The translations under genes and the position numbers were made by a program. DNA of 64,000 nucleotides from a virus: IMG/VR virus record IMGVR_UViG_3300030107_003448, positions 1-64,000 of that record, one strand, 5' to 3'. The notes beneath the pieces are model-generated. The model saw nothing but the letters and a program-made list of their open reading frames with translations, was not told the origin of the DNA and made no database searches. Shown piece by piece: positions 515 to 22,225 of this stretch. Each line of letters begins with the position of its first letter. Within the stretch, counting starts at the first letter, position 1.

Positions 515-2260
515 ATGAGCAGGCAGCAATCTCACGAGCCTTATCACACTATGCCGTATGATGATTTGCTGTTTTGGATGGACCAATTACCAGAAGGCAC
601 CAAAGAACATAATGCTGTTTGGAATGAGATAGAAACAAGGGCAATCGAACAAGAAGGCTCTACAGTTCGTGATATTCTTAACCCAAAAAATGAAGCGGGA
701 GAAAAAGTAGACGAAGAAACTGCTTTGTATTATGAACCACAATTTAGAAATTTACCATATCAATATAGTCAAGGTTTTCGGGATGTTGAGGGTGCAGAAA
801 TTCCTATGCAAGATTTATTAGATGACAAAAAACCTCGTTATGAAAATTTCCAAGAAGATGTAGATGTAAGGATGGATGACATTAGAGAGGCTATGCCCGG
901 TCAATACAATGTTTGGTTGAACGATGCACAAAAAGTATATAATCATTTGAAAGAAGTAGCACCACCAGAAGTAGCACAGCAATATTTAAATCGTTATATT
1001 AATTTTGCAGAAACACATTTAGCAGATAGAACCCCCGAATATATGTCACAATGGTTTGACCACTATTTTGATGAAGGCCCAGAGCCAACAGCACCTATGT
1101 TTGAAAATCCTATACCTACAGACGAAACTATTTTTCAAGAATACCCGGGTAGAGATGGGATAAGTATGAATACTTATGATGTTAGTGGGTTTCCCCATAA
1201 TTTCCAAAGTAAATTAGCAAGTGAACCAATGAGCATCGCTATGCAGTTGCTCAAAGGTAAGTTTGATTTAATGCCGATGGAGGCTGCTAATGAATTATTG
1301 GCTTTTAGTGATGACCCAACAACCATACGCTGGCATAACGATAAATATGGATTAGGTTTGAGTGAAGAAGGTTTGTCTCAAGATGAAATGGATGAATTAC
1401 ATAGTCATATAATAGATAGCGATACTGCTTTTGACCCTTTGGTTCCGGGTGGGATAAGTCACGCAGAAAATGTTGAACAATATGAACAAGAATCAGGAAA
1501 ACAAGCAAGACCTATGGGGTTAAATATACAATTAGGAGATGTTCCTATTATTGACCCTACTAAACCCGAAACTTGGAAAGACGGACCCGGCACTACTTGG
1601 GTTGGGGGAAAACCCACAGTATCTCCGCAGATAACTCAGCAACCATTTCCTTACGACTTTGATTACATTCACCAAGGCGAACCAATGGACATCGCTATGC
1701 GGCTGCTCAAACTTGAATCAGATGAATTAGAATTAACACCACCGATGACTCAAGGTGTCGAAGAACAAATGCCTATACAAGAAAATATTCCTATGGTTGA
1801 TGAAAGCATGGGAGGCGGCTATTTAGATTGTGATTGCGCAGAACGAGTAAGAGAGTATGAAATAAATGAATTAAATAATGAAATACAATATGCTAAGTCG
1901 CTAATAGACTATCCAGAAGAAGCCCGTGCACAGTGGATAAGTGATACACTAAACGAAATTGAGTTTTTAGAAAATGCTAGTTGTGAAGATATAGAGAATC
2001 ATTATCATGACTCGTATAACAGAATGTGTGTTTCAAATGAGTTCAGTGAAGAAGACCAAATGAAATACGCAGGTGAACCAATGGACCTTGCATTTCAATT
2101 CCTTAAAGCACCTACTCCCTTTTGGCGAGATGATATAACTCCAGTAAAACCCAAACCGATTACACAAGAAGACAAAACAGCGCCATGTCCATATTGTGTA
2201 GTTTCATATGAATCATGTAAAGAATGTGGAGGAACCGGGAGGATAAATGTTAATCAGTAA
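515..2260 (+). CDS. Acidic protein with three docking motifs and a C-terminal zinc finger
   Basis: A 581-residue protein of unknown function. It has three copies of the window's recurrent helical motif: SEPMSIAMQLLK (nt 1223-1255), GEPMDIAMRLLK (1679-1711) and GEPMDLAFQFLK (2075-2107). Acidic, Pro/Gln/Tyr-rich and probably disordered sequence separates them. The C terminus has two Cys pairs, CPYC and CKECGGTG, of the kind seen in DnaJ-type zinc fingers. The frame is open from a GTG at 398, but the ATG at 515 is preferred: the upstream part overlaps the 22-bp repeat and a TATA-like box sits about 28 bases before 515. The motif layout suggests a multivalent adaptor binding several copies of one partner, which is inference. 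Confidence 0.75.
   Translation: MSRQQSHEPYHTMPYDDLLFWMDQLPEGTKEHNAVWNEIETRAIEQEGSTVRDILNPKNEAGEKVDEETALYYEPQFRNLPYQYSQGFRDVEGAEIPMQDLLDDKKPRYENFQEDVDVRMDDIREAMPGQYNVWLNDAQKVYNHLKEVAPPEVAQQYLNRYINFAETHLADRTPEYMSQWFDHYFDEGPEPTAPMFENPIPTDETIFQEYPGRDGISMNTYDVSGFPHNFQSKLASEPMSIAMQLLKGKFDLMPMEAANELLAFSDDPTTIRWHNDKYGLGLSEEGLSQDEMDELHSHIIDSDTAFDPLVPGGISHAENVEQYEQESGKQARPMGLNIQLGDVPIIDPTKPETWKDGPGTTWVGGKPTVSPQITQQPFPYDFDYIHQGEPMDIAMRLLKLESDELELTPPMTQGVEEQMPIQENIPMVDESMGGGYLDCDCAERVREYEINELNNEIQYAKSLIDYPEEARAQWISDTLNEIEFLENASCEDIENHYHDSYNRMCVSNEFSEEDQMKYAGEPMDLAFQFLKAPTPFWRDDITPVKPKPITQEDKTAPCPYCVVSYESCKECGGTGRINVNQ
1223..1255 (+). other. Docking motif EPMSIAMQLLK
   Basis: Internal copy in the 515-2260 protein. 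Its bases match the next copy at 1679-1711 almost throughout, which suggests a recent duplication. Confidence 0.7.
1679..1711 (+). other. Docking motif EPMDIAMRLLK
   Basis: Second internal copy in the 515-2260 protein, with Met in place of the usual Trp. Confidence 0.75.
2075..2107 (+). other. Docking motif EPMDLAFQFLK
   Basis: Third copy in the 515-2260 protein, with Phe in place of Trp, just before the zinc-finger tail. Confidence 0.75.
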
Positions 2261-2444
2261 TCCTCCAGAAATAGATGGTCCGAGACTAGCAGATGTTTGT
2301 GAACAAGTAAAAGGATGCCTTAATGGGGATATATTCAAATTTGGTCCAGTCGTTGCAGGTATTTTAATAATGGCCGAAGTTTTATTTTGGGCTTCATTGA
2401 GTGTTTTCATTGTAAAACGATTTAAGAGAAACAGGCAGGAGTGA
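2247..2444 (+). CDS. Small single-helix membrane protein
   Basis: A 65-residue protein of unknown function. A soluble N terminus with two Cys precedes one strong transmembrane helix (about residues 34-57), followed by a short basic tail (KRFKRNRQE), as in an anchored protein with a cytoplasmic basic end. It overlaps the previous gene by 14 bases and has a GGGAGGA ribosome site just before the ATG, so it is probably translationally coupled. Codons near its start contain one copy of the TGGTCCGAGA decamer described at 3978-4057. Confidence 0.7.
   Translation: MLISNPPEIDGPRLADVCEQVKGCLNGDIFKFGPVVAGILIMAEVLFWASLSVFIVKRFKRNRQE
2276..2285 (+). promoter_or_regulatory. TGGTCCGAGA decamer inside the 65-residue membrane gene
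   Basis: Exact copy of the 5' arm of the inverted repeat at 3978-4057, about 30 bases after a start codon. It is read in a different codon phase from the copy at 2640, so the match is not due to shared protein sequence. Confidence 0.5.
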
Positions 2445-2445
2445 C

Positions 2446-2583
2446 ATGTACGATTTATTTTTGTGCTCTCTGTTTTTTTGGTCATTTATATTTGGTTTAT
2501 TCTATAAATCTGAAAAGACAAAAATTTGGGTAAGCATACCACCGAAACAAGCGCCTCCACCAGAAGCATTCAAAAAAGACTAG
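2446..2583 (+). CDS. 45-residue membrane miniprotein
   Basis: A short frame with an ATG one base after the previous stop and a GGAG ribosome site before it. The N-terminal half is a Phe/Leu-rich helix (about residues 4-20) that should insert in a membrane. The tail is basic then proline-rich (IPPKQAPPPEAF). Function unknown. It is one of four small, mostly membrane proteins around the HMG-CoA lyase gene. It is called a gene for its spacing, ribosome site and membrane-protein composition. Confidence 0.6.
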   Translation: MYDLFLCSLFFWSFIFGLFYKSEKTKIWVSIPPKQAPPPEAFKKD

Positions 2584-2604
2584 GTAGTTTACTTTTTACA
2601 CCTT

Positions 2605-2616
2605 ACATATTTAAGC
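2605..2616 (+). promoter_or_regulatory. TATA-like box for the lyase gene
   Basis: ACATATTTAAGC centred about 28 bases before the ATG at 2639, with no Shine-Dalgarno. This is the pattern of an archaeal leaderless promoter. Prediction only. Confidence 0.45.
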
Positions 2617-2638
2617 ACTAAAGCACATTGGGCCTATC

Positions 2639-3532
2639 ATGGTCCGAGAAGTTACGATACATGAGGTTGGTCCTCGTGATGGTTTGCAAGGTTTGCCTTA
2701 TGTGCTTTCTGTGGACCAAAAAAGGCATTTTATTGAGGCTATAGCACATTCTGGAATTAAAAATATAGAGGTTGCTTCTTTTGTTCACCCGAAGTTAGTG
2801 CCCACTATGGCAAACGCCGAAGAAGTTTACAATGAAGTGGAATATTTACAATATGAACCATATCAAAATATGAATTTGAGCACTCTTGTTATGAATCAAC
2901 GTGGTTTTGATAGAGCATTAGAATCTGGAGTCGAAAATTTTAATATTTGCTTTTCTACCTCTGAAGAATTCAATAAAAGGAACTTTGGTAAAGAACAAAC
3001 GGAAATTTTACAAGAATACGCACAAATGTTACAAAATATACCTAAAAATCAAGTCAAAGTATACATTTCTTGCTTTTTTGGTTGCCCATTCAAAGGATTA
3101 ATGTCCGATAGCACATTATTGACTGCTTTTCAAGAAGCAGCCAAGTTAGGTAACACAATTGTGCTCTGTGACACCACTGGAAGGGCTTTTCCACTACATA
3201 TTAAGTATAATTTGGCTTTAGTTGCTACTTTACCCGAATATAAGCAAGTAAGCATTGCCTTACATCTACATGAAGGCGAAAAAGGCAAAGAATTCTTATT
3301 TGATAATATAAAAGCGGCTTTTGATTTTGGTATTAGGAATTTTGATACTAGTATCGGAGGAATTGGAGGCTGTCCGTTCATGCCTCACTCTGGCGGCAAT
3401 GTCCCAACCGAAGATTTAGTCGAATGGTGCGAAAAACAAAATATTGATTGCGGTATTGAGCGCAAAAATTTAGATTCTCTTATTAATTTAGTAAAAAATG
3501 AGTTTAGAGAAAAGGAGTGTGAAATAAGATGA
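2639..3532 (+). CDS. Hydroxymethylglutaryl-CoA lyase (DRE-TIM family)
   Basis: A 297-residue TIM-barrel metallolyase, the usual full length of HMG-CoA lyases, which split HMG-CoA into acetyl-CoA and acetoacetate. Visible signatures: EVGPRDGLQ near the N terminus (R13, D14), E44 in IEVASF, the metal-binding HxH pair (H209, H211), and the family's C-terminal active-site loop GGIGGCPF with C245, then N254 followed by TED. All the catalytic residues I would expect are present, so it should be active. Related DRE-TIM enzymes such as citramalate or isopropylmalate synthases are less likely because the Cys loop is lyase-specific. The gene has its own TATA-like box and probably a leaderless start. 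In archaea HMG-CoA feeds membrane isoprenoid synthesis, so this may be a metabolic gene acting on host lipids, which is inference. Confidence 0.88.
   Translation: MVREVTIHEVGPRDGLQGLPYVLSVDQKRHFIEAIAHSGIKNIEVASFVHPKLVPTMANAEEVYNEVEYLQYEPYQNMNLSTLVMNQRGFDRALESGVENFNICFSTSEEFNKRNFGKEQTEILQEYAQMLQNIPKNQVKVYISCFFGCPFKGLMSDSTLLTAFQEAAKLGNTIVLCDTTGRAFPLHIKYNLALVATLPEYKQVSIALHLHEGEKGKEFLFDNIKAAFDFGIRNFDTSIGGIGGCPFMPHSGGNVPTEDLVEWCEKQNIDCGIERKNLDSLINLVKNEFREKECEIR
2640..2649 (+). promoter_or_regulatory. TGGTCCGAGA decamer at the lyase start codon
   Basis: Starts at the second base of the lyase ATG. The 3' arm of the inverted repeat at 3978-4057 is perfectly complementary to 2640-2650 (11 bases), so an RNA from there could cover the lyase start codon. 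Confidence 0.5.
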
Positions 3533-3705
3533 ATATATGGATAGGGACCATAATATGTTTTGTTCTATCAGTTTTGTTTTATATTTGGTATGCAATTATC
3601 ACATTGTTGAAAAATATAGACATAACATTGACAGAAGAAGACATAGACGGTTTACAGCAAGATTTTAAGAATGGATTGAGGAATGTAGGGAGAAATAATG
3701 ATTAG
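3529..3705 (+). CDS. 58-residue single-helix membrane protein
   Basis: Starts at an ATGA overlap with the lyase stop, preceded by AAGGAG, so it is coupled to the lyase. An N-terminal hydrophobic helix (about residues 5-27) is followed by an acidic then mixed-charge soluble tail. It is a membrane-anchored miniprotein of unknown function. Its coupling to the lyase hints that the enzyme acts near the membrane, which is speculative. Confidence 0.65.
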   Translation: MNIWIGTIICFVLSVLFYIWYAIITLLKNIDITLTEEDIDGLQQDFKNGLRNVGRNND

Positions 3706-3952
3706 ATTGTTAATGTATATCATGGGATATGTATATTGTTTTCTTGAACAGTTTGTATCTTACCCGAATGACGATATAATATTGGGTTTGCCTATTGACG
3801 AAGATTTGCAGCAAATGAGTAGAGCAGAATTGTGTGAATACATTGAAAGCAATACGCCTGCCAAAGGTTCATTTTGGCATTTAGATTCTACTAGCAAAAT
3901 TAGATTTGGTGCTCAAAACCTACGAAACGGTAAAATTAAACCCAAACAATAA
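3698..3952 (+). CDS. Unknown 84-residue protein with hydrophobic N terminus
   Basis: Overlaps the previous gene by 8 bases and has a GGGAG ribosome site. The first 20 residues are hydrophobic (LLMYIMGYVYCFLEQF) and could be a signal or membrane helix. The rest is soluble, with a short acidic helix and a basic C terminus (KIKPKQ). I do not recognise it. It ends the lyase transcription unit, just before the inverted repeat at 3978. Confidence 0.6.
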   Translation: MIRLLMYIMGYVYCFLEQFVSYPNDDIILGLPIDEDLQQMSRAELCEYIESNTPAKGSFWHLDSTSKIRFGAQNLRNGKIKPKQ

Positions 3953-3958
3953 AAGTAT
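3947..3958 (+). promoter_or_regulatory. TATA-like box before the inverted repeat
   Basis: The sequence CAATAAAAGTAT is centred about 25 bases before 3978, which would place a transcript start almost exactly on the 5' arm of the inverted repeat. Weak evidence that the repeat is a separate small RNA. Confidence 0.3.
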
Positions 3959-3977
3959 GGTGTTTGGTATTTGAGTT

Positions 3978-4057
3978 TGGTCCGAGACCTCCGCTACAGT
4001 ACCTTTCTTACCCTATTTCTAACTACGGATAATTCCATTGGGAAGTTTCTCGGACCA
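3978..4057 (+). ncRNA. Candidate 80-nt structured RNA or operator pair
   Basis: TGGTCCGAGA (3978-3987) and TCTCGGACCA (4048-4057) are perfect 10-bp inverted arms. Inside, CTTACCC (4007-4013) can pair with GGGAAG (4040-4045) with one bulge. No reading frame runs through it. The length recalls a tRNA but there is no T-loop or anticodon arm. The 5' decamer recurs exactly at 2276 and 2640, so the 3' arm would be antisense to two upstream genes, including the lyase start codon. It could instead be a pair of protein-binding sites. Confidence 0.4.
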
Positions 4058-4065
4058 CCCTAACT

Positions 4066-4073
4066 ATTATTAT
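4066..4073 (+). promoter_or_regulatory. TATA-like box for the 4096 gene
   Basis: ATTATTAT centred about 27 bases before the ATG at 4096, with no Shine-Dalgarno. Prediction only. Confidence 0.4.
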
Positions 4074-4095
4074 CCCTGTTACTTTACGCTATGAC

Positions 4096-4452
4096 ATGGC
4101 GAGTCTAGTAAGTCCGTTAGAAGCAGCATGGGCCGTGCTATTAAAACGAGACCCACATGAAGATGAAGACCCTTATTTAACTATGTATATGCAAGGTCAA
4201 GAAGAAGCAGATGAAGAAATGTATGGTGATTCATTTGACGAAGAAGGAAATCCTATTGAAGGTTTACCTAGTGCTCCCCGAAAAACACCAATGCCAAAAT
4301 TTGACACAGGTGCAGATAGCAAATTCAATTTACAAGAGCATGCTTTAGCAAATTTACTTGAACACGCCGAAGAAGCAGGAATGGGAGCAGGGCAATTCAA
4401 ACAACCAGCCCCAGAAATTCCAGAAGAAGAAGAAACTCCTCCGGAAGAATAA
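4096..4452 (+). CDS. Acidic 118-residue protein with N-terminal docking motif
   Basis: Begins MASLVSPLEAAWAVLLKRDP, a variant of the recurrent helical motif (nt 4111-4146). The rest is very acidic and probably disordered, ending PEIPEEEETPPEE. No enzyme domain is visible. The gene starts a unit with a TATA-like box at 4066 and is followed after one base by a small zinc protein. The design, a short helical tag plus an acidic tail, would suit an adaptor or a DNA-mimic-like protein. That is speculation. Confidence 0.7.
   Translation: MASLVSPLEAAWAVLLKRDPHEDEDPYLTMYMQGQEEADEEMYGDSFDEEGNPIEGLPSAPRKTPMPKFDTGADSKFNLQEHALANLLEHAEEAGMGAGQFKQPAPEIPEEEETPPEE
4111..4146 (+). other. Docking motif SPLEAAWAVLLK
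   Basis: N-terminal copy in the 4096 protein, with one extra residue (AVLLK) relative to most copies. Confidence 0.65.
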
Positions 4453-4617: not shown

Positions 4618-4779
4618 TTATTTTCCATATCCTGCGCAATGTTTATCAGACATTTTTCTATTACACATTACTGCTTTATCTCCTTCTATATAATTACCAT
4701 ATGGGCATTGAGGATTTAGGCATTGCACAAAACCAAAAAAATTAGGAGTTTGTTTAGTTATTTTTTCTTTTTTAGTCAT
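4618..4779 (-). CDS. 53-residue Cys-rich protein, leftward
   Basis: Not large, but a clean frame: ATG at 4779 overlaps the previous leftward gene's stop as ATGA, and TAA lies at 4618-4620. A Lys-rich start is followed by CLNPQCPYG, a later CNRK and CAGYG, giving four Cys that could bind one metal ion. It converges with the rightward 4454 gene, leaving only two bases between stops. Function unknown. Confidence 0.65.
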   Translation of the reverse strand: MTKKEKITKQTPNFFGFVQCLNPQCPYGNYIEGDKAVMCNRKMSDKHCAGYGK

Positions 4780-5060
4780 ATTACTAACACCTCTGCTTTG
4801 AGAGTTCCTCTTTCTTTGAAATGTCTAGCCCGATTTGTGTGAGGGTCTTCTGGAACTAAAGTATGTTCTTGTGTATGACTCATATCTGGACCACCTTGTC
4901 CATAAATTCCTCTTTTCCTTCTTTCACGATTTAAATCTTCACGATATTCTACTCTTTTTGGATTAGATTCATATTGCGTATCATATTCTCTTTTATGTCG
5001 TAATGCTTCGGGGCTTGTAGCATGTTTAAGTAAATCCCACGCCGCATTAAGAGGTCTCAT
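4776..5060 (-). CDS. Docking motif fused to an HNH-like small domain, leftward
   Basis: A 94-residue protein beginning MRPLNAAWDLLKHA, the recurrent motif placed at the very N terminus. The rest has the pattern YREDLNRERRKRGIYG, then DMSH, then NRARHF. This combination recalls a family of small phage proteins with an HNH-like Asp-His/Asn-Arg layout, but I recognise it only by pattern and nuclease activity is unproven. It is the first gene of a two-gene leftward unit, with a TATA-like box on the minus strand at 5080-5089, back to back with the promoter of the 5147 gene. Confidence 0.7.
   Translation of the reverse strand: MRPLNAAWDLLKHATSPEALRHKREYDTQYESNPKRVEYREDLNRERRKRGIYGQGGPDMSHTQEHTLVPEDPHTNRARHFKERGTLKAEVLVI
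5025..5060 (-). other. Docking motif MRPLNAAWDLLK
   Basis: N-terminal copy and the only one on the minus strand. It is close to the MRPIDIAWDLLK start of the 22190 protein. Confidence 0.8.
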
Positions 5061-5089: not shown

Positions 5090-5118
5090 ACTCTTTTCCC
5101 AAAAACGCTATCAATTGT

Positions 5119-5128
5119 GTTTATATCC
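5119..5128 (+). promoter_or_regulatory. TATA-like box for the 5147 gene
   Basis: GTTTATATCC centred about 23 bases before the ATG at 5147, with no Shine-Dalgarno. It is the best archaeal TATA match in the window. Confidence 0.55.
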
Positions 5129-5146
5129 CATGTCACAGGGCCAGAC

Positions 5147-5179
5147 ATGTCTATCGATGTTGCGTGGGATTTTTTAAAA
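5147..5179 (+). other. Docking motif MSIDVAWDFLK
   Basis: N-terminal copy in the HD-like protein, with Ser-Ile replacing the usual Pro-Met. Confidence 0.75.
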
Positions 5180-8100
5180 CAATCTAACCCAGAATGGGCT
5201 CAACCTACATTAGAAGATTGGGGCCTAGAACCGCCTAAACAAATTACCCCTAAAAAGAGACTTTTTCAACGAAAAAAAACTTCCCGCACCCCTGTCAAAG
5301 AGCGTCCTGTATGGCAGTTTAATCAAGAGCCGCCAATTTTCGATTTCGGACCCCACGCAATTAATCATGTGGATGACGAGGCGTTGAAAAACATACAAGA
5401 ATACGAAAACGATGAAACAGGAAAGACTTTACATGATGTTTGGAGAAGGGCAGAGAGAGGAGTGCCTAAGCAAGTGTGGTTGCAATTAGATAAACTTTTA
5501 GAAGGAAAAAACCAAAACACACGTTTATTAGATTATATATCTCCAAAAGATATGAAATTAACAGAGACTATACGTCACTCTCCATCAGCGAGTTTATCAC
5601 AAATGATACACAAGAGCATGATATTTAGTTTCTTATTAACAGAAAAAGAAATAAATGATATTACAGGAAATAATGTAACATTTTTACATGACCCACAAAA
5701 TAAACTTAATAAAATAGCCTCTACAATTAATAGTAAATTTTTAGCCCTATCTCATAATTTAAATGTCCCTCCTTTAATATTAAGTTTATATTTACATGAT
5801 ATGGCTCGTCCTGCCGAGAAATATATGGATGATGATGAACTACCAAAATATATAACTCATGGATATGAGGTAGGTCCTTTAAATTCTGAATTAAAAACAT
5901 CAGAAATAAACAAATGGTTACAAAATATAGCAAGTGGTATAATAGATGACGATAACTATATCGATTTAACTCATAGTATACGAGAATATATACAAAGCCC
6001 TGCGTTTAATGAAGAAGTATCACGCATTTTTGATGATGATATTCATGGTGATAATTCATTGGGACAAAACTTAATAAGAAATCATCAAGATGCTTTAGAG
6101 CGCCGAAATTCTAAACAAATGAGAGAAGGAACCACAACAAGGCGACCTTCTGCCGACATTTATAATGAAGCCGTAAAAATAACTAAAACAAAACTAAATG
6201 GTCTTGCAGATTTTATAATAAATGCAGATAAATGGTATAGAAACGGGGTAATAAATAATCCTCATATAAATAATCAAAGCGAAGGGGTGAGTTGGAAAGA
6301 TATAGACGGCCCTATTCATTCGGGCGGAAAGCACGGAGAACCTATTATAACAACTCGGAAAAATGTTACATTACCTCATTCTGAAAATATGATGGATTAT
6401 TATACGTCATTAAAATGGTTTAAAAAAGAATTCGGTTGGGATAACTTAAATTCGGATATTAAATGGAATAGTGTAGGAGATGGCTATAAATCAATGGAGC
6501 CCTCCGAAATTTATCACAAATTAGTAAAAGAAACATTTCCTACTAGTAATTATGTATTATTTGCGCCTTACGATAAAATAATCGATTATTTACAAGATTC
6601 CACAGGTTATACGTTTCCAAAATCTGTACAAAAAATGATAAAAGAAGGATGGGGAATAGAAACTGATTGGAACGATTATGCCCCACGGCATGCAAGAAAA
6701 TTGCAAGATATACAGCAGGCTCATGATACACATGATATGGTTCCTATACAACACACTGATATGGTAGGCCCTTTTATTAATATGACTAATACGAATAAAT
6801 GGGTCAAAAGAGAAGGAATAGGGCAACTAATGAATAGTGCCATTCTTAATCGCACGGGTCATCTTTTATCAGATATGCGAACACCGTCTGGACAAGCCTT
6901 TACTGATTCATTAGAGCAATTAATAAATATGTTTGGTGAATCTGATATATATGATAAATTCGGCTATCCATATCATAAAACTAAAGAAGACCGTCTGTCG
7001 GGTATTAAAAATTTCTTAATGCAACCATTTGGGGCAAAAAAGTTACAAAGTATGTTTGGTGTAGTTCCCGAGTGGGTAAAGCATATTTCCCGAGGTGGCG
7101 GTGCTAATACATACTCTACTTTTTTGCCATCAGATTTGGGAGAAAAAGAAAAAGAGAAGTTTATGTCTAAAGTGGAATTTAAAGATTTACCTGAAGATTG
7201 GCAGTACACTCTCAAAAATGTTGACCCGGAAGACTTTAGAGATGACCCCGAACTAGTGTCGATTTTAACAAAGTTAAAGGAAGAAGAAATGTTTGACTGG
7301 GATAATGACTGGGAAAAAATAACACCAGCGTCACGTGTAATACTAACAAATGCTTTACAAGAGGAAGACCTGCACGGTAGGAGAGAAAGATATTTACATT
7401 ATCAATTGCCTTCTCCTTGGGGAGAATTAAGGCCACAAAGCGATGTTTTACCTCCTTTACAAGTAAAAGATGCCCCCGATGTATTGATAGGTGACCGCCC
7501 TACTCCTTATTTTACAGATGACACTAGAATTACACCCGATAGAACACGAAATTTACAAAGGCTACAAAATCTTTTATCAAGTCGCTTAGAAGATTTAGGT
7601 GAGAGGGGTTTACGAGGAAGACAGCAAGCAGTAAAAACGTTACAAGGGGCCCCTACTGATGTATTATTAGAAAATTTGAAATGGCCCGGGGATTATGACC
7701 GCCTATTTACTGGGAAGCCTAGAATAAGAAGTTTAAAAAATTTAAAAGACAAATTAAATCCTAGTGGCGTACCCGCCGAGTATTACGATAGATTACGAAG
7801 TTGGCAAGATGAATGGAAAGGCGAACACAGTACTTCACCATATTCATATTTGACAGGAGAGTTTGATGCCGGGCGCAGTTCTCCAAGACGTGATACGTTC
7901 AGACCTTATCGAGGACAAACGACATTATTTCCTAAGTTCGTTTCAGATTCGGAGCGTGTTCTATCGGGTCCCCCACAACGTCAAGGTTTACCTACATGGC
8001 AAGAAGTAAAAGAAAGAAATAAAAATATACAACAAATGAAGAATATGTATCAGCAAATGGTTGAGCGATATGAGCCTAACTTCAATCCACAAGAAATGCA

Positions 8101-8221
8101 AGAGATGTTTCCGCCCCCATTTGAATTGGACTTAACCAGTTACCAAATGCTCCAAGATAGGGCTCCTTACCAACATGTAAACCCAATCAATTGGTCTATT
8201 CCTAATAACGAGGTGAATTAA
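5147..8221 (+). CDS. 1024-residue protein: docking motif plus HD-like hydrolase domain
   Basis: Begins MSIDVAWDFLK, the recurrent motif. The upstream in-frame start at 5117 is rejected because it lies inside the TATA-like box. Residues about 180-370 look like an HD-superfamily phosphohydrolase: SHNLNVPP (H203), then YLHDMARP (H217, D218), then a His in YITHGYEVG, and finally ADFIINADKWYR (D361), which matches the family's last metal-binding Asp. Typical members cleave phosphate esters of nucleotides, including (p)ppGpp and dNTPs. The substrate here is unknown. The remaining 650 residues, charged and rich in Arg and Pro near the end, match nothing I know. It starts a rightward unit. The HD call rests on motif order only. 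Confidence 0.7.
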   Translation: MSIDVAWDFLKQSNPEWAQPTLEDWGLEPPKQITPKKRLFQRKKTSRTPVKERPVWQFNQEPPIFDFGPHAINHVDDEALKNIQEYENDETGKTLHDVWRRAERGVPKQVWLQLDKLLEGKNQNTRLLDYISPKDMKLTETIRHSPSASLSQMIHKSMIFSFLLTEKEINDITGNNVTFLHDPQNKLNKIASTINSKFLALSHNLNVPPLILSLYLHDMARPAEKYMDDDELPKYITHGYEVGPLNSELKTSEINKWLQNIASGIIDDDNYIDLTHSIREYIQSPAFNEEVSRIFDDDIHGDNSLGQNLIRNHQDALERRNSKQMREGTTTRRPSADIYNEAVKITKTKLNGLADFIINADKWYRNGVINNPHINNQSEGVSWKDIDGPIHSGGKHGEPIITTRKNVTLPHSENMMDYYTSLKWFKKEFGWDNLNSDIKWNSVGDGYKSMEPSEIYHKLVKETFPTSNYVLFAPYDKIIDYLQDSTGYTFPKSVQKMIKEGWGIETDWNDYAPRHARKLQDIQQAHDTHDMVPIQHTDMVGPFINMTNTNKWVKREGIGQLMNSAILNRTGHLLSDMRTPSGQAFTDSLEQLINMFGESDIYDKFGYPYHKTKEDRLSGIKNFLMQPFGAKKLQSMFGVVPEWVKHISRGGGANTYSTFLPSDLGEKEKEKFMSKVEFKDLPEDWQYTLKNVDPEDFRDDPELVSILTKLKEEEMFDWDNDWEKITPASRVILTNALQEEDLHGRRERYLHYQLPSPWGELRPQSDVLPPLQVKDAPDVLIGDRPTPYFTDDTRITPDRTRNLQRLQNLLSSRLEDLGERGLRGRQQAVKTLQGAPTDVLLENLKWPGDYDRLFTGKPRIRSLKNLKDKLNPSGVPAEYYDRLRSWQDEWKGEHSTSPYSYLTGEFDAGRSSPRRDTFRPYRGQTTLFPKFVSDSERVLSGPPQRQGLPTWQEVKERNKNIQQMKNMYQQMVERYEPNFNPQEMQEMFPPPFELDLTSYQMLQDRAPYQHVNPINWSIPNNEVN

Positions 8222-9971: not shown

Positions 9972-10403
9972 ATGAATCCCCGTATTCCGATAGGTATGAT
10001 GAGCCCATTTGATATGGCATGGAGTGTATTAAAATCCGCTTCAACTGATTCTATATTAAAATTAAGAAGGATTCGTGAAGATGGCTCTGAAATTGGTCCT
10101 CATGAATTACAAGCGTTATTCCAAAGAGTGCATCAGTTAGATGCAATGTTTGAGCAGACTGGAAATCCTGAATTTAAACAACAAGCAGATGAATTGGCTC
10201 AAATGTTAGAAGGCGCTGTAACTAGAGGAGCAGAAAATTTTTACGGTCCTTTTGATATGACAGGAGTAGAAGAAGCCCCAATTATGCCAGCGTTTAGTAC
10301 CCAAACGGCTGAACCAGTAGACGTAGACACAGGCGCAATGGCTACTATGCCACACCAACAATCTGTGGGTGTTAAACAACCAGAACAAGAGCCAGAATAT
10401 TGA
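9972..10403 (+). CDS. 143-residue protein with N-terminal docking motif
   Basis: Contains MSPFDMAWSVLKSA (motif at nt 10002-10034) within its first 25 residues. The start could be 9972, which has an AT-rich box about 26 bases upstream in the previous gene, or the ATG at 9999, which would put the motif at the very N terminus as in other carriers. After the motif comes a helical region (about residues 25-80, heptad-like Leu and Gln), then a Pro/Thr/Gln-rich disordered tail. No known domain. Confidence 0.7.
   Translation: MNPRIPIGMMSPFDMAWSVLKSASTDSILKLRRIREDGSEIGPHELQALFQRVHQLDAMFEQTGNPEFKQQADELAQMLEGAVTRGAENFYGPFDMTGVEEAPIMPAFSTQTAEPVDVDTGAMATMPHQQSVGVKQPEQEPEY
10002..10034 (+). other. Docking motif SPFDMAWSVLK
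   Basis: Near-N-terminal copy in the 9972 protein. Confidence 0.8.
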
Positions 10404-13545: not shown

Positions 13546-13967
13546 AAGCCATCCATGTTCCAATGAATGTTTTGTTGGCATACGGCACACCTTATACTCC
13601 ATTTTTACATGGTAAGGATAAATTAAAACCAGAAGAAATTGAAATATTTTTTGATGGTGTGCATGAGTGTGTAGAACGTTGGTTGTATTATCTAAATCAA
13701 CAATTTATTGCTGAACCAATTCATTTACCATACCATGCCCCTGTTGAAAATCTAAGAGAATCTTTGTTAAGTTTAATGGAAGTTGATGATGAATCTGTAT
13801 TCCAAGTTAGAAAACAAGCACATCATGCAATTATTGAGTTTGAACATCTTTGCACTGATATGGCTCGTTCATTTACTCATCCTCCTCGTATTAAAGATTT
13901 TTATCATAATTTAGCAAGTAGGTCTAGGTCTACTTTAGAAAGTTTGACGGATGGTGATGTTAAATGA
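13542..13967 (+). CDS. Unknown 141-residue protein
   Basis: ATGA-overlapped at both ends with its neighbours, so it belongs to the packaging unit. Predicted mostly helical, with many His, Trp and aromatic residues (ECVERWLYYLNQQF, HHAIIEFEHL). No motif or known family. It might cooperate with the zinc/HTH protein in packaging. Confidence 0.65.
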   Translation: MKAIHVPMNVLLAYGTPYTPFLHGKDKLKPEEIEIFFDGVHECVERWLYYLNQQFIAEPIHLPYHAPVENLRESLLSLMEVDDESVFQVRKQAHHAIIEFEHLCTDMARSFTHPPRIKDFYHNLASRSRSTLESLTDGDVK

Positions 13968-15847
13968 CTGCTCCAATGGGAAGGGGTTCTGATACCCGTT
14001 TATTCAACCCACGTTCTGAATCTACACGTATGTTTGGGTATGAAGAAGATGATTTAGGACATGCTCATGGTGAAGGAGACCCAGAAATTACAGCACAGAA
14101 ACGTGAAAAGAAGCGTGACGAAAAAGAAGATAAGAAAAAACGTCAACATTTACAGCATCTTAAAATTCAACATAAAGATGTTTTAGATATGTTACCAGAA
14201 GATGGTAAAGAAGCATCTCAAGAAGGAGACTTAGAATTAGGCAATAACGATGAAGCAGAAAATGAATTATCTGCATTAACTGGTGCTAGTGGTTCTCGTG
14301 GTGCTATGCTCGACCAAGCAGTTGGGGCAAAAACAGGAACTGGTTCTGCAATGGGTGGCACACCTCCTTTGCTTGGGCCGATGGGTGTTTACCGAAGTGA
14401 CGATGCTATGGAATTGGCTTGGGATGAATTAACAATCCGTAAAGATGAAGAAAATGTCGAAAAATGGTTACAAGCCATTCCCGCTCTTGTACAAGGAGCA
14501 GCAAGGGTTGCTGCAAAAGTAGCCCCTAAAATAAAGGAAGCGGGTAAAGCGTTTCTTGGATTTAAAGGAGCACAATCAGTATTAGGTGGTGGTGGACAAG
14601 CAGCAGCAACAGGGACACAAGCAGCAGCAACAGGGACACAAGCAGCAGCAACAGGGGCAACAGGAGCAGGGACAAGAGCAGTTGGAGTAGCAGATGACGT
14701 AGCGCCTCCTAAATCAGCAGGTCAAGAAGTACAAGAAAACGCTCAACAACAGCAGCAGCAACAACAGCAAGCAGGTCAACCACAAGCAGATTTAACTGCA
14801 CAAGCGACACAATTTAGAGACCAAACCCATGCAGATAAAGCAGCAGCCGAACAAGCAAGAGACGCAAGAGCATCAGGCCAAATAGCCGCTAGTGAGCCAA
14901 TGGATTATGCTTGGTCTCTTTTAACTAAATCAAAAAAAGATAAAGACGAAGGACCAATGGCTTCTGGTGATATAGGAACTGCTGGTACATCTATCGGTAG
15001 ACGTAAAGAACAAGCCGCTAAATGGGCTCACCCTCGTTTCAAAGGGCCTCCCGGAGGAAGAAGACCATGGACTGCAACTAGCCGTAGGGCTAAAGCAAGA
15101 AGCAGAACATTATCTCCTCGACATCGTGTTCATGACATTAAAGGTGGATTGATGAGTGCGCCTTTGGCTGTTCACATGTCTCACCTTGGTGTGCAAACTA
15201 AACAACCTATGCGGCAATTCCCAGAAAAATATCGTCAATATTATGGTCAACAATTACGTAGAAGACTGCAAGGTAATGTGCCTTTACCATATTCGCCCCA
15301 CGGTATTATGGGAGAAAGAACGCAAACTCCCGGACCAACAGGTGGAGGTATTCTTCCGGGTCAATTGCCGGGGCAAGCAGCAGCAGCCCGTATACCTTCA
15401 ATGCGCAGATTAGCAAGACCACGAGTTCCAAGACTACGTAGACCTACAGGTTTTGCCCCAATGACTCCGCCTAGTATACCTCAAGCGCCTTCTTTACCTC
15501 AACCTGCACAAGTAGGTTTGCCTTCTTCTTCAATTCAAATGTCTGATAAAGTAGGAGTAGGTAGTAGTTTACAAAAGAATTTAGATATTTTAAGGCCCGG
15601 CACATTTTCTTATTTACATAGTCGAGAAATCGCAAAACTTCTTAGAGAATTAAAAGAGGCTATGAAACACCAAAAGATGCAAAAATCAGGCGTTAAAGAT
15701 GTATCTGGTGCAGGTGAAACTAAACCTAAACATCCTGCTAATAGTCCAAGTAAAACAACTAGATTAGAAGGAGCAACTGAAACAGACCCAGATGATGACC
15801 CTCGATATTGGGGCATGGAACCATCTGCTATGATAGGAGCACATTGA
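13964..15847 (+). CDS. 627-residue disordered protein with two docking motifs
   Basis: Carries DDAMELAWDELT (nt 14399-14434) and SEPMDYAWSLLT (14894-14929), both variants of the recurrent motif. Between them lies an Ala/Gln/Thr/Gly-rich linker built from a 21-bp repeat (14600-14660) and a poly-Gln tract (about 14740-14770). The N terminus is highly charged, the middle Arg-rich, and the C terminus Pro-rich. No catalytic domain is seen. Flexible, Arg-rich and multivalent, it could organise DNA or other motif-binding partners in the capsid. This is inference from composition and its place among packaging genes. Confidence 0.7.
   Translation: MTAPMGRGSDTRLFNPRSESTRMFGYEEDDLGHAHGEGDPEITAQKREKKRDEKEDKKKRQHLQHLKIQHKDVLDMLPEDGKEASQEGDLELGNNDEAENELSALTGASGSRGAMLDQAVGAKTGTGSAMGGTPPLLGPMGVYRSDDAMELAWDELTIRKDEENVEKWLQAIPALVQGAARVAAKVAPKIKEAGKAFLGFKGAQSVLGGGGQAAATGTQAAATGTQAAATGATGAGTRAVGVADDVAPPKSAGQEVQENAQQQQQQQQQAGQPQADLTAQATQFRDQTHADKAAAEQARDARASGQIAASEPMDYAWSLLTKSKKDKDEGPMASGDIGTAGTSIGRRKEQAAKWAHPRFKGPPGGRRPWTATSRRAKARSRTLSPRHRVHDIKGGLMSAPLAVHMSHLGVQTKQPMRQFPEKYRQYYGQQLRRRLQGNVPLPYSPHGIMGERTQTPGPTGGGILPGQLPGQAAAARIPSMRRLARPRVPRLRRPTGFAPMTPPSIPQAPSLPQPAQVGLPSSSIQMSDKVGVGSSLQKNLDILRPGTFSYLHSREIAKLLRELKEAMKHQKMQKSGVKDVSGAGETKPKHPANSPSKTTRLEGATETDPDDDPRYWGMEPSAMIGAH
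14399..14434 (+). other. Docking motif DDAMELAWDELT
   Basis: Internal copy in the 13964 protein. The usual LLK is replaced by ELT, so this is one of the most divergent copies counted. Confidence 0.6.
14600..14660 (+). repeat. 21-bp tandem repeat, about three units
   Basis: Unit reads gcagcagcaacagggacaca plus one base and encodes the linker AATGTQA. The third unit is diverging. It is in frame, so changes in copy number would keep the frame. Confidence 0.7.
14894..14929 (+). other. Docking motif EPMDYAWSLLTK
   Basis: Internal copy in the 13964 protein, followed by a Lys/Asp-rich stretch. Confidence 0.8.
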
Positions 15848-15848
15848 T

Positions 15849-17945
15849 ATGCCACAAATAATCGTACTCAATCCTGCTGAAATGCTACTTAAGTCATTTT
15901 TCAGAGAAGTAGTTGAGCCTGCTATTATCATGAAAGGAGACGGTGTCCTCTATATGGGCCCGGGCGGAAATAAACTGATGGGTTTTCCTCCAGAACATGC
16001 GTTCAATATGGACCCTAATGTGCCAGACCACCCTATGTGGTCACATGACCCTCATACAGGAGATTTGCTTGAAGGAGGAATGCATCCTATAGATGGCGCT
16101 TTATATCATTTACAAGAATTTTTGAGCAAACATGGGATTAAAGGCGTACAGGCAGAACAAATAATTCAACAAGCAATTGATGATTACAATAGAAGCCATA
16201 CCTCTGATAACCATCATTTACCACCTTTTAATTCTCCAGAATGGAGGAAATTAGTAATAGGCCCTCATCCTACTAATGTAGCCAGTAGTGAAATTGCTTC
16301 TCGTGGAAAAGATGGTAAATTATTTACTCATTATGGTAATAGAGGAGGGGCTATTGGTTTATTCCCTGAATCTGGGGCTATACCTTTCTATAAAGAATTA
16401 GAAAAAATTCTAACCGATATGGGTTTAGGACACGCTAGAGATGAATTAGAGTTTGTAAAATATCCAAATATTAGTGCCCAACATTTAGCCTCTAATGTAT
16501 ATCGTACTAAAAAAGGAGAATTATCTGCACACGGTATTGTTCCTTCTCATGTTTTAGAACAACATGGACCAGAAGGAGCATTATATGATGCAGCACATGG
16601 TGCTCGACATACATGGGAAACTGTGCATCATTTACCTCCTGCTATGTTTGCTCCGGGTTATGCTTTACGTTCTAATAGTGCAACCTTACGAGAAATGAAT
16701 GCACAGATAACTCAAGCATTAGCAACTGTGCCCCCTCAAAAATTACCAAATATACCAATTCAATTACACGATGGCACTAGAATGGGATTTAGAGAGGCTA
16801 TGTCAAATCCTAAAGCCAGAGAAATGCTGATTAATGATATGGCTACTTCTGCTGCATCTCAATATATGTTTGCAGGAGCAGGTAGTCCTGCTACACGCAC
16901 TAAAACAAGAGAAATTTTAGGACCTTTGATGGGAGAAGAAAATATTGAAGGTTTTGATATACACAGTTCTCATTCATACACAGGCACTCGTAGAAAAGGG
17001 AGAAGCCCACATTCTTTTGCTGCCAAAGTAGCGGCGGCGGCGGCAGCACATGGTCCTTGGGAAAAAGACTCATCACGTTCTGCTTTAGCAGATAATCCAC
17101 ATGGATTAAAACCAAATGCCGATTTTAATGAAATTGAAAGGCGTAGAATTGCTATTGAAGGACTTGCTGATTTATTATCTGCTGCTAATGGGCATGATAG
17201 ATGGACTCCAGATTGGGATAATTTACCAACAGAAGCATTGGCTTCTCGTGATATTGGTAACATGGGTCAAATATTACATGAACAAGTCCCAGACCATTTT
17301 TCAAATCGATTTTACACAGATTTGAATATTGCACCAATGGCTATGGCGGGTATACCTACAGGTATGGGACAAGGTCCTTCTGTTGTAGAACCTAAACCTG
17401 CACCTCCTCCAGCCCCTGCTCCACCTCCTGCACCTGTTCCACAGGCTGCAATTCCTAGTTCACCTGCGGCGACAATTATGAGACCACAAACCCCCGCTTT
17501 AGTTGCTGCTCGTCAACATATAGGTGCGCAACCTAGTATGGGAGAAAGACAAAGAGTAGCAGAAGATTATGGATTAAAAGTGCCAGAATTTGAAAGAAGA
17601 AGATACCTAGAAACAATGGGAGACCCTGCTCAGACATTTTTATCTCAATGGGGAATGAAATCTGAAACTCAACCAGTTGAAATGATTGACCGTATTGAAA
17701 AAGCAATGGAAGAATTACAACTTAAAGATGCTATTAGGGATGATTCAGTTATCAAGTATCTTCCAAATAAAAAGAATCTTAATTTTAATATAGAGGCTGA
17801 TGTATTATTTATGGCTCAACATGTAGGTTTGACTAAACATGATATTCGTTCTATTATAGTTTCAAAAGGCGATTGGCATCGTGTCGCTGATATATATCAA
17901 GTATCTCCTTCTATTGTAGGAGCAGTTAAGGTGGTGTTTTCATGA
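15849..17945 (+). CDS. Unknown 698-residue protein
   Basis: The ATG lies two bases past the previous stop, and the end overlaps the next gene as ATGA. The first 460 residues look folded, with many His, Gly and Pro. A Pro/Ala linker follows (about residues 516-540, nt 17395-17460), then a helical C-terminal domain (about 570-698) ending in an apparent helix-turn-helix-like helix set. The N-terminal NPAEMLLKSFF only vaguely recalls the docking motif. It is probably a packaging or virion protein by location. Confidence 0.65.
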   Translation: MPQIIVLNPAEMLLKSFFREVVEPAIIMKGDGVLYMGPGGNKLMGFPPEHAFNMDPNVPDHPMWSHDPHTGDLLEGGMHPIDGALYHLQEFLSKHGIKGVQAEQIIQQAIDDYNRSHTSDNHHLPPFNSPEWRKLVIGPHPTNVASSEIASRGKDGKLFTHYGNRGGAIGLFPESGAIPFYKELEKILTDMGLGHARDELEFVKYPNISAQHLASNVYRTKKGELSAHGIVPSHVLEQHGPEGALYDAAHGARHTWETVHHLPPAMFAPGYALRSNSATLREMNAQITQALATVPPQKLPNIPIQLHDGTRMGFREAMSNPKAREMLINDMATSAASQYMFAGAGSPATRTKTREILGPLMGEENIEGFDIHSSHSYTGTRRKGRSPHSFAAKVAAAAAAHGPWEKDSSRSALADNPHGLKPNADFNEIERRRIAIEGLADLLSAANGHDRWTPDWDNLPTEALASRDIGNMGQILHEQVPDHFSNRFYTDLNIAPMAMAGIPTGMGQGPSVVEPKPAPPPAPAPPPAPVPQAAIPSSPAATIMRPQTPALVAARQHIGAQPSMGERQRVAEDYGLKVPEFERRRYLETMGDPAQTFLSQWGMKSETQPVEMIDRIEKAMEELQLKDAIRDDSVIKYLPNKKNLNFNIEADVLFMAQHVGLTKHDIRSIIVSKGDWHRVADIYQVSPSIVGAVKVVFS

Positions 17946-19351
17946 GTAATATTTTGGTGAGAAAAGGACCAAACATAGCAGAATCAGTAGAACCTGCTGT
18001 TACTGGTGGCTCATCTACCGCTATAATGCCCGGCGGTCAAATATTTTTTAGTGGACCAGCAGGTTATCAAATACCTATTGGAGGAGGTAGAAGTAAAGGA
18101 AATATTACTCCTTCGCAGCGAGATTTGACTCGTCTTAGTAGAGATAGACCTGCTATTGGAAATATTAAAGTAATGAAACCAGAACAAAGAGCGGTTTTGA
18201 ATCGACCAACAGCACCAGTAGATTCAGTGGGCGTTATACGTGATATGGGACGTAGAAATGAATTAGCCAGAGGAGCAAAGCGAGATAAATTAGCGAGACT
18301 ATTAGGTCGAGGGCTTGCTGGATATGCTGCTTTGGCCTCATCAGATAGTGATGATTTAATGGATGCAGGTGGCCGTATGTATGGTACTTATGCAGCAACC
18401 CGTGCTGCAACTGGAGAGGGTGCTCTTGAAGGTAGTTATGACCAAGACGAAGAAGGTAATATTACTAGAACTCCAAGTGCTTTTGAAAGAGGATTTGGAG
18501 ATTTAAGAGAAGGTGCCCAAGAAACTGGGGGCGCTATTGGTAGAGGACTAGTTGGAGTCAAAGATTGGGCTAAAGAAAAATGGAGTCAATTAAAAAATAA
18601 ATGGCCTACTAGAGAATCTGTAGCAGTAGAGCCGTCTATGTATGAAAGAATTGACGCAATGCCTCACCCTGCTCAAACATTGAGTGGGGGATATTTTGAC
18701 CCACGAATGCGAGCATTAGTGAGTGATGATTCACAATTAGCAGTAGACGCAGTGGCAAGAAGGCAAGCAAAACAACAAAGACAAAATCAAATAAATACTC
18801 AAAAGATAGGAGAAGTTCTTGTTAATCCAACAATGACTGGACAAGCCCCTCCACCACCAGTAGGTATGGCAACTGTAGGTATGAATATGCCTCCACCAAC
18901 TCAAGCCACAGGTTTCAACCCACAAGCAGTAGGCCAAGGAGAGGTGGGAACAGAACCTGTTATGAATACAACACCTACTGACCCCAAGCAAGGGACTCTT
19001 GACCCATGGTTGAATAATCCAAATCAACAACCAAATGCTGTTGGTGGAGGTCCAGAAGACCCATTTAAGGACTTAAAAGGAGAACCAATGGATATGGCTT
19101 GGTCATTATTGAAAGAAAATCAACCATGTAAAGATTGTGGGCAACCTGCCCCTACTAATTTTCGTATGCCGATTTGGGAATTAAATGGTTTATGTTTTGA
19201 TTGTATTGACAGAAGAATGAAAGAGATGGGGGCAACACAAGAAGCGAATGAAGAAACAGGGCAACCTGCAACAACAATGCGTGACTTACTTAATGCTAAA
19301 ATAAGTGAAGCAGGAATAGCAGGAGACCGACAAAGAGAGGATTTAGCATGA
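17942..19351 (+). CDS. 469-residue protein with docking motif next to a zinc finger
   Basis: Rich in Gly, Arg and Pro with little predicted structure in the first 370 residues. Near the C terminus GEPMDMAWSLLKENQP (motif at nt 19082-19114) is followed at once by a zinc finger, CKDCGQPAP then CFDCIDRRMKE. Motif plus zinc finger also occurs in the 515 protein, though in looser order. The gene overlaps TerL by ATGA, so it is made together with the packaging motor. Function unknown. Confidence 0.7.
   Translation: MSNILVRKGPNIAESVEPAVTGGSSTAIMPGGQIFFSGPAGYQIPIGGGRSKGNITPSQRDLTRLSRDRPAIGNIKVMKPEQRAVLNRPTAPVDSVGVIRDMGRRNELARGAKRDKLARLLGRGLAGYAALASSDSDDLMDAGGRMYGTYAATRAATGEGALEGSYDQDEEGNITRTPSAFERGFGDLREGAQETGGAIGRGLVGVKDWAKEKWSQLKNKWPTRESVAVEPSMYERIDAMPHPAQTLSGGYFDPRMRALVSDDSQLAVDAVARRQAKQQRQNQINTQKIGEVLVNPTMTGQAPPPPVGMATVGMNMPPPTQATGFNPQAVGQGEVGTEPVMNTTPTDPKQGTLDPWLNNPNQQPNAVGGGPEDPFKDLKGEPMDMAWSLLKENQPCKDCGQPAPTNFRMPIWELNGLCFDCIDRRMKEMGATQEANEETGQPATTMRDLLNAKISEAGIAGDRQREDLA
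19082..19114 (+). other. Docking motif EPMDMAWSLLK
   Basis: Close to the consensus of all copies, directly ahead of a four-Cys zinc finger. Confidence 0.85.
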
Positions 19352-20811: not shown

Positions 20812-20816
20812 TATAT

Positions 20817-22193
20817 ATGTGGGGTTCATCATTAGTCGGAGATGAGTATGATTTACCTATAGATATTAGTAATATTGATAGCCCTCTTACGAGGGCAATA
20901 ATTAAAGAGTTAGGTAAACACCCACACTTTGACAAAAAGCCCGGAGGGTTGGTAAGTATTGTAATTAGCCTACAAGGAAAGAAACCAAAAGAAGATACTA
21001 TCGAAGAAAAAAAGGATGAGAATATGACTAATAAATCTGCTTTACAATTTTCATCTGATGGCACTGGTTGGTTTGAAGACCAATTAGGTAAAAGTGCAGA
21101 TGCTATAGTCAAAGACTTGCGTAGAGCAAGAAGACACTATAAAGATTTCAAAGATGATATTGATACTATAATTCGTAGTGTCCAAGATTTAAAAAGTTTA
21201 GAAGTAGAAACTACTTTAAAAATGTATAATTGGATGGACGGCAGAGAATCCACTATACGAGATTTAGGATTATCTGATAGAGATTTAAAGTCTTTAAGAA
21301 AATTCGGAGGCGCTCGTGCTCATTCTTTAATTAAAGCATGTCAACAATGGGATAATGCAACTAGTGTAATTAAAACTTTAGAATCTGTAGAAGATGCTTG
21401 GGATAATAGTCAAAAACAAGATTGGGCTAATGCTATGCAATTAAGAAAAGATGCACGTAAGTCGTGGAGACACGCTTTACATCAAACAGACTCTCTTACT
21501 AAACATGAACAAGTATGGTTAGAAATCGCTCGTGAAGATTTATCACATCGAGGACCTATGAAAGCAGCAGATATAGTGAATAATATTTTAACGAAAGGAG
21601 TAGACCAAAATCAATTTAAGAGTTTAACACCTAAAGGTTTGGCTAGTCTTTTGAATATTTATGGAGAAGAAGTAGATATTATGAAAGGAGGACGTAGAGG
21701 ACAATATGTATTAATTAAAAATGACGCACTAGTTATTAAATCTGAACAAATTTGGCCATATGCTGCTGGCTTTTTAGATGCTGATGGTTATATTTCTATT
21801 ACTAAAAGAGGCGAACCTCGTGCTGGATTTATTGCTACTGGTTCACGTGGTAGAATTCATTGTGAACAATTACATAAAACATTAGGATGTGGTGTTTTAC
21901 AATTAGACCAAAAAATATACAAAGATGGACAAAGAAGCCAACATAGATTACAATTTTATTCAAAAGATGATATGAGAAAACTACTAAATGGAGTATTACC
22001 TCATTTACATATGAAAGATATTCAAGCCAAAGCAGTGTTAGAATTTTTAGATGCAGACGCAGAAAGAAAGCAACAATTACAGAAAGTAGTGCAATACGAA
22101 AATTGGAAAGACACACAAAAGGCTCAAGAACTGCTTACTGAGTGGGGTGTACAGGCCGAAGTCATCGGTAAGTGGACAGAGGGATTAATATGA
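20817..22193 (+). CDS. LAGLIDADG-domain protein between terminase and portal
   Basis: A 458-residue protein. The C-terminal third is a single LAGLIDADG unit: AAGFLDADGYISI (core GFLDADG at residues 318-324), then basic strands, then HRLQFYSKDDMRKLLNGVL. The acidic residues that hold the metal in homing endonucleases are present. With only one motif it would have to work as a dimer. The N-terminal 300 residues are helical and unlike any homing enzyme I know, and end with a winged-helix-like segment. There is no intron or intein around it. It may be a free homing gene fused to, or captured by, a morphogenesis gene. The ATG at 20817 follows a GGAG site; 20796 would overlap TerL. Confidence 0.75.
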   Translation: MWGSSLVGDEYDLPIDISNIDSPLTRAIIKELGKHPHFDKKPGGLVSIVISLQGKKPKEDTIEEKKDENMTNKSALQFSSDGTGWFEDQLGKSADAIVKDLRRARRHYKDFKDDIDTIIRSVQDLKSLEVETTLKMYNWMDGRESTIRDLGLSDRDLKSLRKFGGARAHSLIKACQQWDNATSVIKTLESVEDAWDNSQKQDWANAMQLRKDARKSWRHALHQTDSLTKHEQVWLEIAREDLSHRGPMKAADIVNNILTKGVDQNQFKSLTPKGLASLLNIYGEEVDIMKGGRRGQYVLIKNDALVIKSEQIWPYAAGFLDADGYISITKRGEPRAGFIATGSRGRIHCEQLHKTLGCGVLQLDQKIYKDGQRSQHRLQFYSKDDMRKLLNGVLPHLHMKDIQAKAVLEFLDADAERKQQLQKVVQYENWKDTQKAQELLTEWGVQAEVIGKWTEGLI

Positions 22194-22225
22194 GACCAAT
22201 AGATATAGCATGGGACTTGTTGAAA
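22190..22225 (+). other. Docking motif MRPIDIAWDLLK
   Basis: N-terminal copy, nearly identical to that of the leftward 4776-5060 protein. Confidence 0.85.

Follow-up and report, generated by a model that had tools for sequence, protein, structure and literature searches.

A modular twelve-residue peptide on unrelated late proteins of magroviruses, a candidate head-cargo targeting tag

The first 64 kb of the 100,678-base IMG/VR record IMGVR_UViG_3300030107_003448 (hereafter the window) encode eleven copies of a short peptide motif, here called the tag, which otherwise dissimilar virus proteins carry at the start codon or at internal sites. The motif recurs in related viruses, where 755 non-redundant copies are found, and its features are best accommodated, on balance and by analogy, by a modular head-cargo targeting peptide of magroviruses that is used like the capsid targeting sequence of phage T4. 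The hosts of magroviruses are among the most abundant archaea in surface ocean water; the viruses themselves have been seen only in metagenomes, and most of their genes lack annotation. A description of the motif was not found in the literature searched, which did not extend to Philosof 2017 and Prabhu 2025.

The reality of the motif was assessed with a two-register profile trained on 713 tags of other viruses, from which this virus and its closest fetched relatives were left out. The profile was scored on all open reading frames of the window in six frames, with 100 shuffled windows as the control. All eleven sites listed in the initial annotation lie where it placed them and constitute the eleven best profile matches of the six-frame window. 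Eight score 22.9–35.2 bits, beyond the shuffle maximum of 16.3, while the weaker three, at 4108 (14.7), 5144 (12.6), and 14399 (12.2), all exceed the 95% point of the shuffles (11.3). These three are credible because the first lies near a start codon, the second coincides with an ATG start at 5147, and the third matches the tag site of orthologues. The copy at 5147 is one residue short and rises to 26.9 bits once one residue is inserted, and its ATG is likely the true start of the large protein listed as 5117–8221. Reversed profiles give 0 matches, and the shuffles, the reversed profiles, and the independent training together rule out an origin by chance or composition. No twelfth copy was found in the window or in bases 64,001–100,678. 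A coiled-coil segment (MESMD...LLK) in the protein at 24904 and its orthologues was a false positive and was removed.

After removal of duplicates, the 755 copies comprise 393 at a start codon and 362 that are internal or C-terminal. The start-codon consensus is M-x-[P/A]-[F/M]-[D/E]-x-A-W-x-[L/V]-L-K, with M in 96%, any residue, P/A, F/M/I/L, D/E, any residue, A in 97%, W in 90%, any residue, L/V/I, L/I, and K in 90%; conservation ends after this Lys, the twelfth residue. The internal and C-terminal consensus is [G/S]-E-P-M-[D/E]-x-A-[W/F/M]-[R/S]-(x)-L-L-K. Internal copies have a hydrophobic residue three positions ahead, followed by T/M/K/A, G/S, E, P, M, D/E, x, A, W/F/M, and R/S/Q, with an optional extra residue ahead of L-L-K. 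An upstream stop is visible for 392 of the start-type copies; it lies within 30 codons in 347, and a Shine-Dalgarno-like tetramer precedes 298, which makes the assigned starts credible. The short helix formed by the tag is amphipathic and opens with Pro and an acidic residue, and its mean hydrophobic moment is 0.50 versus 0.29 for shuffled sequences.

The tag behaves as a module. The first 341 tagged proteins, which hold 439 copies, sort into 112 unrelated families when the motif is masked, and an alignment of 128 tagged proteins retains almost nothing in its consensus except the tag. The phrog_6437 domain follows the tag in 28 loci and precedes it in two (G004, G005). The window's own member, described initially as HNH-like, belongs to this PHROG of unknown function, and its match starts at residue 16. 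Cyanophage homologues of the phrog_6437 protein are tagless, and the longest of their alignments begin at residue 13; more broadly, no tag is seen on cyanophage and pelagiphage homologues of tagged domains. Pfam-supported tagged members include SLOG/YAcAr, DUF7831, GNAT, HD_4, DnaJ-type zinc finger, DUF5872, and DUF6321, a support that is mostly one protein per family, with several weak E-values. Pfam shows no HD domain in the 5117–8221 protein, which had been called HD-like. Other tagged proteins resemble, in their sequences, ADP-ribosyltransferases (ARTs), ParB proteins, and metallopeptidases, and the tagged set as a whole resembles takeover or anti-defence cargo. The ART label is a sequence reading, as the predicted structure of an ART-like tagged protein (pLDDT 42) is unusable. 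In several ART-like proteins (L039:1198–1614 (+), L104:317–778 (+), L005:1909–2379 (−), and L030:1647–2126 (+)), a PIP-box-like sequence, RQTTLGEFHPDLPSP, directly follows the tag.

A tagged HD protein provides the one structural view of the motif. Its best alignments to solved (p)ppApp/(p)ppGpp hydrolases begin only at about residue 15, and its best Foldseek match is the (p)ppApp hydrolase 7smg (TM 0.82). In the AlphaFold model, residues 3–11 form a separate tag helix of low confidence, with a mean pLDDT of 53 over the first ten residues and values mostly above 90 elsewhere; the tag is thus predicted to be an isolated helix ahead of a complete fold. Tagged HD proteins of this kind, a (p)ppApp/(p)ppGpp hydrolase-like type in viruses of archaea, occur at L016:4815–5237 (−) and in L036, L039, L048, L078, and L199. 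At the other extreme of copy number, an open frame of 1,205 residues (L026:1–3615 (+)) contains eight tags and is possibly a multivalent organiser or a polyprotein.

A degenerate DNA pattern for PMDxAWxLLK finds 78 stretches in the IMG/VR collection and a single exact match in 257 Gb of cellular genomes, in a 32-residue open reading frame of a Cyclobacteriaceae metagenome-assembled genome, which is probably a chance match; mimicry of a host motif in this exact form is thereby ruled out. The DNA pattern for the N-terminal form finds 84 stretches. Among loci selected by TerL only, 67 of 80 carry at least one tag, as do all 49 of those longer than 19 kb. The magrovirus capsid gene is present on 40 of the 50 tag-positive contigs tested, and in nine of the ten others the sequence retrieved includes a fibre, thermosome, PolB, or helicase gene of magroviruses; the tenth (L223) and the window have an HMG-CoA-lyase-like gene in common. 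A TerL search of those ten contigs gave no match, the contigs being fragments without TerL or not resolved. The tag looks specific to magroviruses because tag-positive contigs carry the capsid gene or other magrovirus genes, and no spread to other virus groups was found among the 50 contigs.

The record itself fits Magrovirales. Its plus strand encodes TerL (19348), the portal (22744), a prohead protease of family S78 (31632), the major capsid protein (32999), and tail genes, with TerL and the capsid protein assigned by PHROGs and the protease by Pfam. The minus strand of the last 36 kb of the record encodes TFB, thermosome, helicase, PolB, PCNA, and RFC, identified by sequence reading and by homology among ten compared genomes. 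The International Committee on Taxonomy of Viruses profile of Magrovirales, viruses of Poseidoniales archaea, describes a matching gene set and opposed transcription (PMC12999244). The record falls within the ~90–110 kb of this order and has the PolB replisome opposite to the head-tail module.

Within these genomes the tag is restricted to late genes. Ten near-complete genomes hold 128 tags (9–20 each), 125 of which lie on the TerL (morphogenesis) strand, and none was seen among their replication genes. Most tags belong to an accessory block that precedes TerL or to the orthologue of p627, a largely disordered late protein; some lie between TerL and the portal, and a few past the capsid or fibre gene. 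The p627 orthologue bears a tag in the genomes compared. The degenerate copy at 14399 occupies the position at which p627 orthologues carry clear tags, such as SEPMENAWSELLK in the same context of the G001 orthologue. TerL, portal, capsid, and tail genes were initially described as tag-free, which holds within the window; a few tagged genes of relatives directly follow the capsid gene (G005 24997–25907) or sit where the fibre gene ends (G037 52978–53592). At least one tagged domain can be tied to head modules: the small basic DUF6321 domain is tagged in many magroviruses, DUF6321-type proteins of unknown function lie between the scaffold and capsid genes in three pelagiphages (L299, L300, and L297), and the DUF6321 gene of cyanophage S-CRM01 sits just before the terminase gene gp17.

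A targeting or docking peptide on unrelated proteins, the central claim of the initial annotation, is strongly supported by (i) the sharp end at residue 12, (ii) the 96% Met at residue 0 of start-type copies, (iii) position-independence, (iv) occurrence only in magroviruses and in late genes, and (v) the tagless homologues of tagged domains in other phages. The common partner that it proposed, a capsid part or scaffold, is a matter for inference. A head-cargo tag is favoured because late expression, location in the head module, diverse small enzyme-like proteins, and one short helix agree with the T4 picture. From it we infer the virion location, partner, delivery, and cleavage of the tagged proteins. 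The tag helix would bring late proteins to one shared partner in the head under assembly, probably the scaffold/protease core or p627, the core protein that is always tagged; they would then be enclosed alongside the genome and delivered on infection. The S78 protease with its extension is a candidate partner, cleaving enzyme, or both, and may trim the tags at maturation, as happens to the T4 targeting sequence; the last Lys of the tag may be the P1 residue of this protease. The capsid N-arm keeps a GSELLK/GDILK pattern, which resembles the C-terminal half of the tag, in 20 of 20 homologues covering the site, and capsid maturation may involve a cut between GSELLK and SDSP. The capsid protein itself probably starts at the methionine of MARNY, seven codons past the listed ATG. 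Similar conserved LxK sites occur in the S78 protease extension and in a 125-residue protein. Of the isolated conserved lysines, 8 of 20 in head proteins fit the pattern [LIMVF]-x-K-[ASGM], versus 3 of 35 in tail and replication proteins (Fisher p = 0.011), a lead only, since the pattern was picked post hoc after inspection of the data. Several observations weigh against this reading: roughly half of the copies lie inside proteins or at their C-terminus, which is not the case in T4; some tagged genes adjoin the fibre gene and not head genes; and the position after the Lys is unrestricted (A 26%, E, K, M), an uncommon trait for a simple cleavage site. A bolder form, put forward tentatively, is a position-independent, order-wide address system in which the helix, placed anywhere, makes a late protein virion cargo and multi-copy proteins act as multivalent organisers that keep this cargo inside the head.

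The alternative that survives best is an intracellular docking tag, which would bind a host protein or a virus-made hub (e.g., the thermosome or a replication/assembly site) with no need for packaging. The resemblance of tagged proteins to enzymes acting inside the cell speaks for it, as does the PIP-box-like RQTTLGEF that directly follows the tag in ART-like proteins. Start-type tags of non-homologous proteins are also more alike within a virus than between viruses (similarity 0.633 versus 0.541, with a permutation maximum of 0.561), as co-evolution with a partner predicts. However, codon identity of the tags is likewise higher within a virus (0.462 versus 0.325) and no similarity excess is seen for internal tags, so that the likeness may reflect copying of tag DNA; partner co-evolution and copying would each account for it. 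Confinement to the late strand would moreover be late for host takeover, unless the next particle delivers the proteins, and the near absence of the exact pattern from cellular genomes leaves no host motif that is mimicked in that form. Docking inside the cell is judged rather unlikely.

A processing signal, in which the tag marks a late-polyprotein boundary and serves the S78 protease chiefly for recognition and cleavage, is less probable still. Multi-tag proteins, with up to eight copies in 1,205 residues, would suit it, and the terminal LLK is like GSELLK of the capsid N-arm and further LxK sites that head proteins conserve. Against a cleavage signal as the main role stand conservation along the full helix, even at A and W, which lie well away from the supposed cut, a P1′ residue that is not fixed, and the occurrence of tags at the extreme N-terminus of small enzymes, where no boundary exists to be marked.

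Homotypic assembly, in which tags pair mutually and proteins with a single tag collect on a core of p627 and multi-tag proteins, is judged very unlikely. The peptide is amphipathic, p627 orthologues are tagged themselves, and multi-tag proteins fit multivalent gathering, but a heptad or coiled-coil extension is absent and the near-invariant Trp and Ala point to a specific groove. Spread of a DNA cassette, with the tag mainly a short recombination boundary that shuffles accessory genes and a peptide of little function, can be set aside: shared codon preferences and the higher within-virus codon identity would suit it, but there are 734 distinct DNA versions among the 755 copies, only four of these versions are common to non-homologous proteins, and the amino acids are kept in frame through varied codons, inside genes too. 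The same 734 versions largely uphold the initial view of a peptide and not a DNA signal, with the amendment that codon choice is non-random. In the classes where they are countable, TTG at Leu9 (51–60% versus 21–26% expected), CTC at Leu10 (39–49% versus 14%), and ACC at Thr1 (56% versus 24%) are over-used, which points to tag DNA that is inherited or copied at least in part, or to some mRNA-level preference.

Table 1. Tags and associated features of the window, with scores from the independent profile.
Feature	Sequence	Position	Strand	Context	Score (bits)
Tag 1	SEPMSIAMQLLK	1220..1255	+	internal, 581-residue protein (515-2260)	22.9
Tag 2	GEPMDIAMRLLK	1676..1711	+	internal, 581-residue protein	28.9
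Tag 3	GEPMDLAFQFLK	2072..2107	+	internal, 581-residue protein, ahead of C-terminal DnaJ-like zinc finger	26.3
Tag 4	VSPLEAAWAVLLK	4108..4146	+	near N-terminus, 118-residue protein (4096-4452)	14.7
Tag 5	MRPLNAAWDLLK	5025..5060	-	start codon, 94-residue phrog_6437 protein (4776-5060)	26.7
Tag 6	MSIDVAWDFLK	5147..5179	+	large protein listed as 5117-8221	12.6 (ungapped)
Tag 7	MSPFDMAWSVLK	9999..10034	+	N-terminal, 143-residue protein (ATG 9972, 9996 or 9999)	35.2
Tag 8	DDAMELAWDELTI	14399..14437	+	degenerate, in p627	12.2
Tag 9	SEPMDYAWSLLT	14891..14926	+	internal in p627	33.3
Tag 10	GEPMDMAWSLLK	19079..19114	+	internal, 469-residue protein (17942-19351), immediately ahead of zinc-ribbon-like CxxC segment	33.3
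Tag 11	MRPIDIAWDLLK	22190..22225	+	start codon, 180-residue protein (22190-22732) just upstream of portal	32.5
p627		13964..15847	+	largely disordered late protein, between helix-turn-helix protein and p698, upstream of TerL	
Prohead serine protease (Peptidase_S78)		31632..33014	+	Pfam PF04586, E=6.9e-12	
Major capsid protein N-arm	GSELLK	33107..33124	+	resembles C-terminal half of tag	

Other features of the late region and accessory block merit mention. The C-terminal extension of the S78 protease is probably a scaffold. A second motif, [MS]-x-W-[DNE]-[DE]-[VI]-H-x-[LM]-A, lies at the C-terminus of the protease/scaffold (window 32961–33011 (+)) and near the C-terminus of the 125-residue protein between the portal and the protease (about 25183–25218 (+)); the relatives compared keep it too, and it may serve in docking to the scaffold. 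Also between the portal and the protease sits a 1930-residue late protein (25810–31602 (+)), residues 1445–1548 of which give a weak Pfam match, under the curated cut-off, to an mRNA-cap-binding/nucleotidyltransferase-like domain (E=1e-4); it is possibly ligase-like. The HMG-CoA-lyase-like gene lies in the accessory block at 2639–3532 (+) of the window and at L223:11094–11969 (+) on the other tag-bearing contig.

As a head-cargo signal, the tag would mark dozens of unknown proteins as one functional class, such that cargo proteins could be found by sequence alone, and would predict which magrovirus proteins enter the host first. As far as the literature searched shows, it would be the first such code in an archaeal virus.

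Among known systems, the PIP box is likewise a short helical docking motif that is reused on many unrelated proteins. The tag is a motif separate from it, as judged from sequence: the pattern Q-x-x-[ILM]-x-x-[FYW]-[FYW] does not describe the tag, which has neither the Gln nor the aromatic pair at those places. In the giant phage SPN3US and its relatives, many head proteins, the ejection (E) proteins, are packaged and delivered, and several have N-terminal propeptides cut by the prohead protease (PMC10052503). These propeptides differ from the tag in being mostly 111–254 residues long and in following another protease cleavage consensus. The N-terminal 30 residues of DarB of phage P1 send a reporter into the capsid (PMC9024508), a signal comparable in its N-terminal position; DarB is not known from that account to share a 12-residue motif of this kind with other proteins.

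The closest parallel is T4, in which diverse internal proteins share only a capsid targeting propeptide of 10–19 residues (PMC3012670, PMC9026906). Residues 4 and 7 of this sequence matter for targeting, and the prohead protease trims the peptide (PMC9026906, PMC3012670); the magrovirus tag has Phe/Met at residue 4 and Trp at residue 8. Both systems place a short N-terminal peptide on unrelated proteins, with 393 start-codon copies and 112 families in magroviruses, and both encode the tagged proteins with late/morphogenesis genes. They differ in that 362 of the 755 magrovirus copies are not at a start codon, with up to eight per protein, in the far larger number of protein families tagged, and in the S78 family of the magrovirus prohead protease. 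There is no sequence match, as the T4 internal proteins IPI and IPIII (from AF158101) score −14 and −9.9 with the tag profile. The relation thus appears to be a likeness of use and not of membership, and, if borne out, the tag would give a group of archaeal viruses a general code for protein delivery, unlike that of T4 in both sequence and layout.

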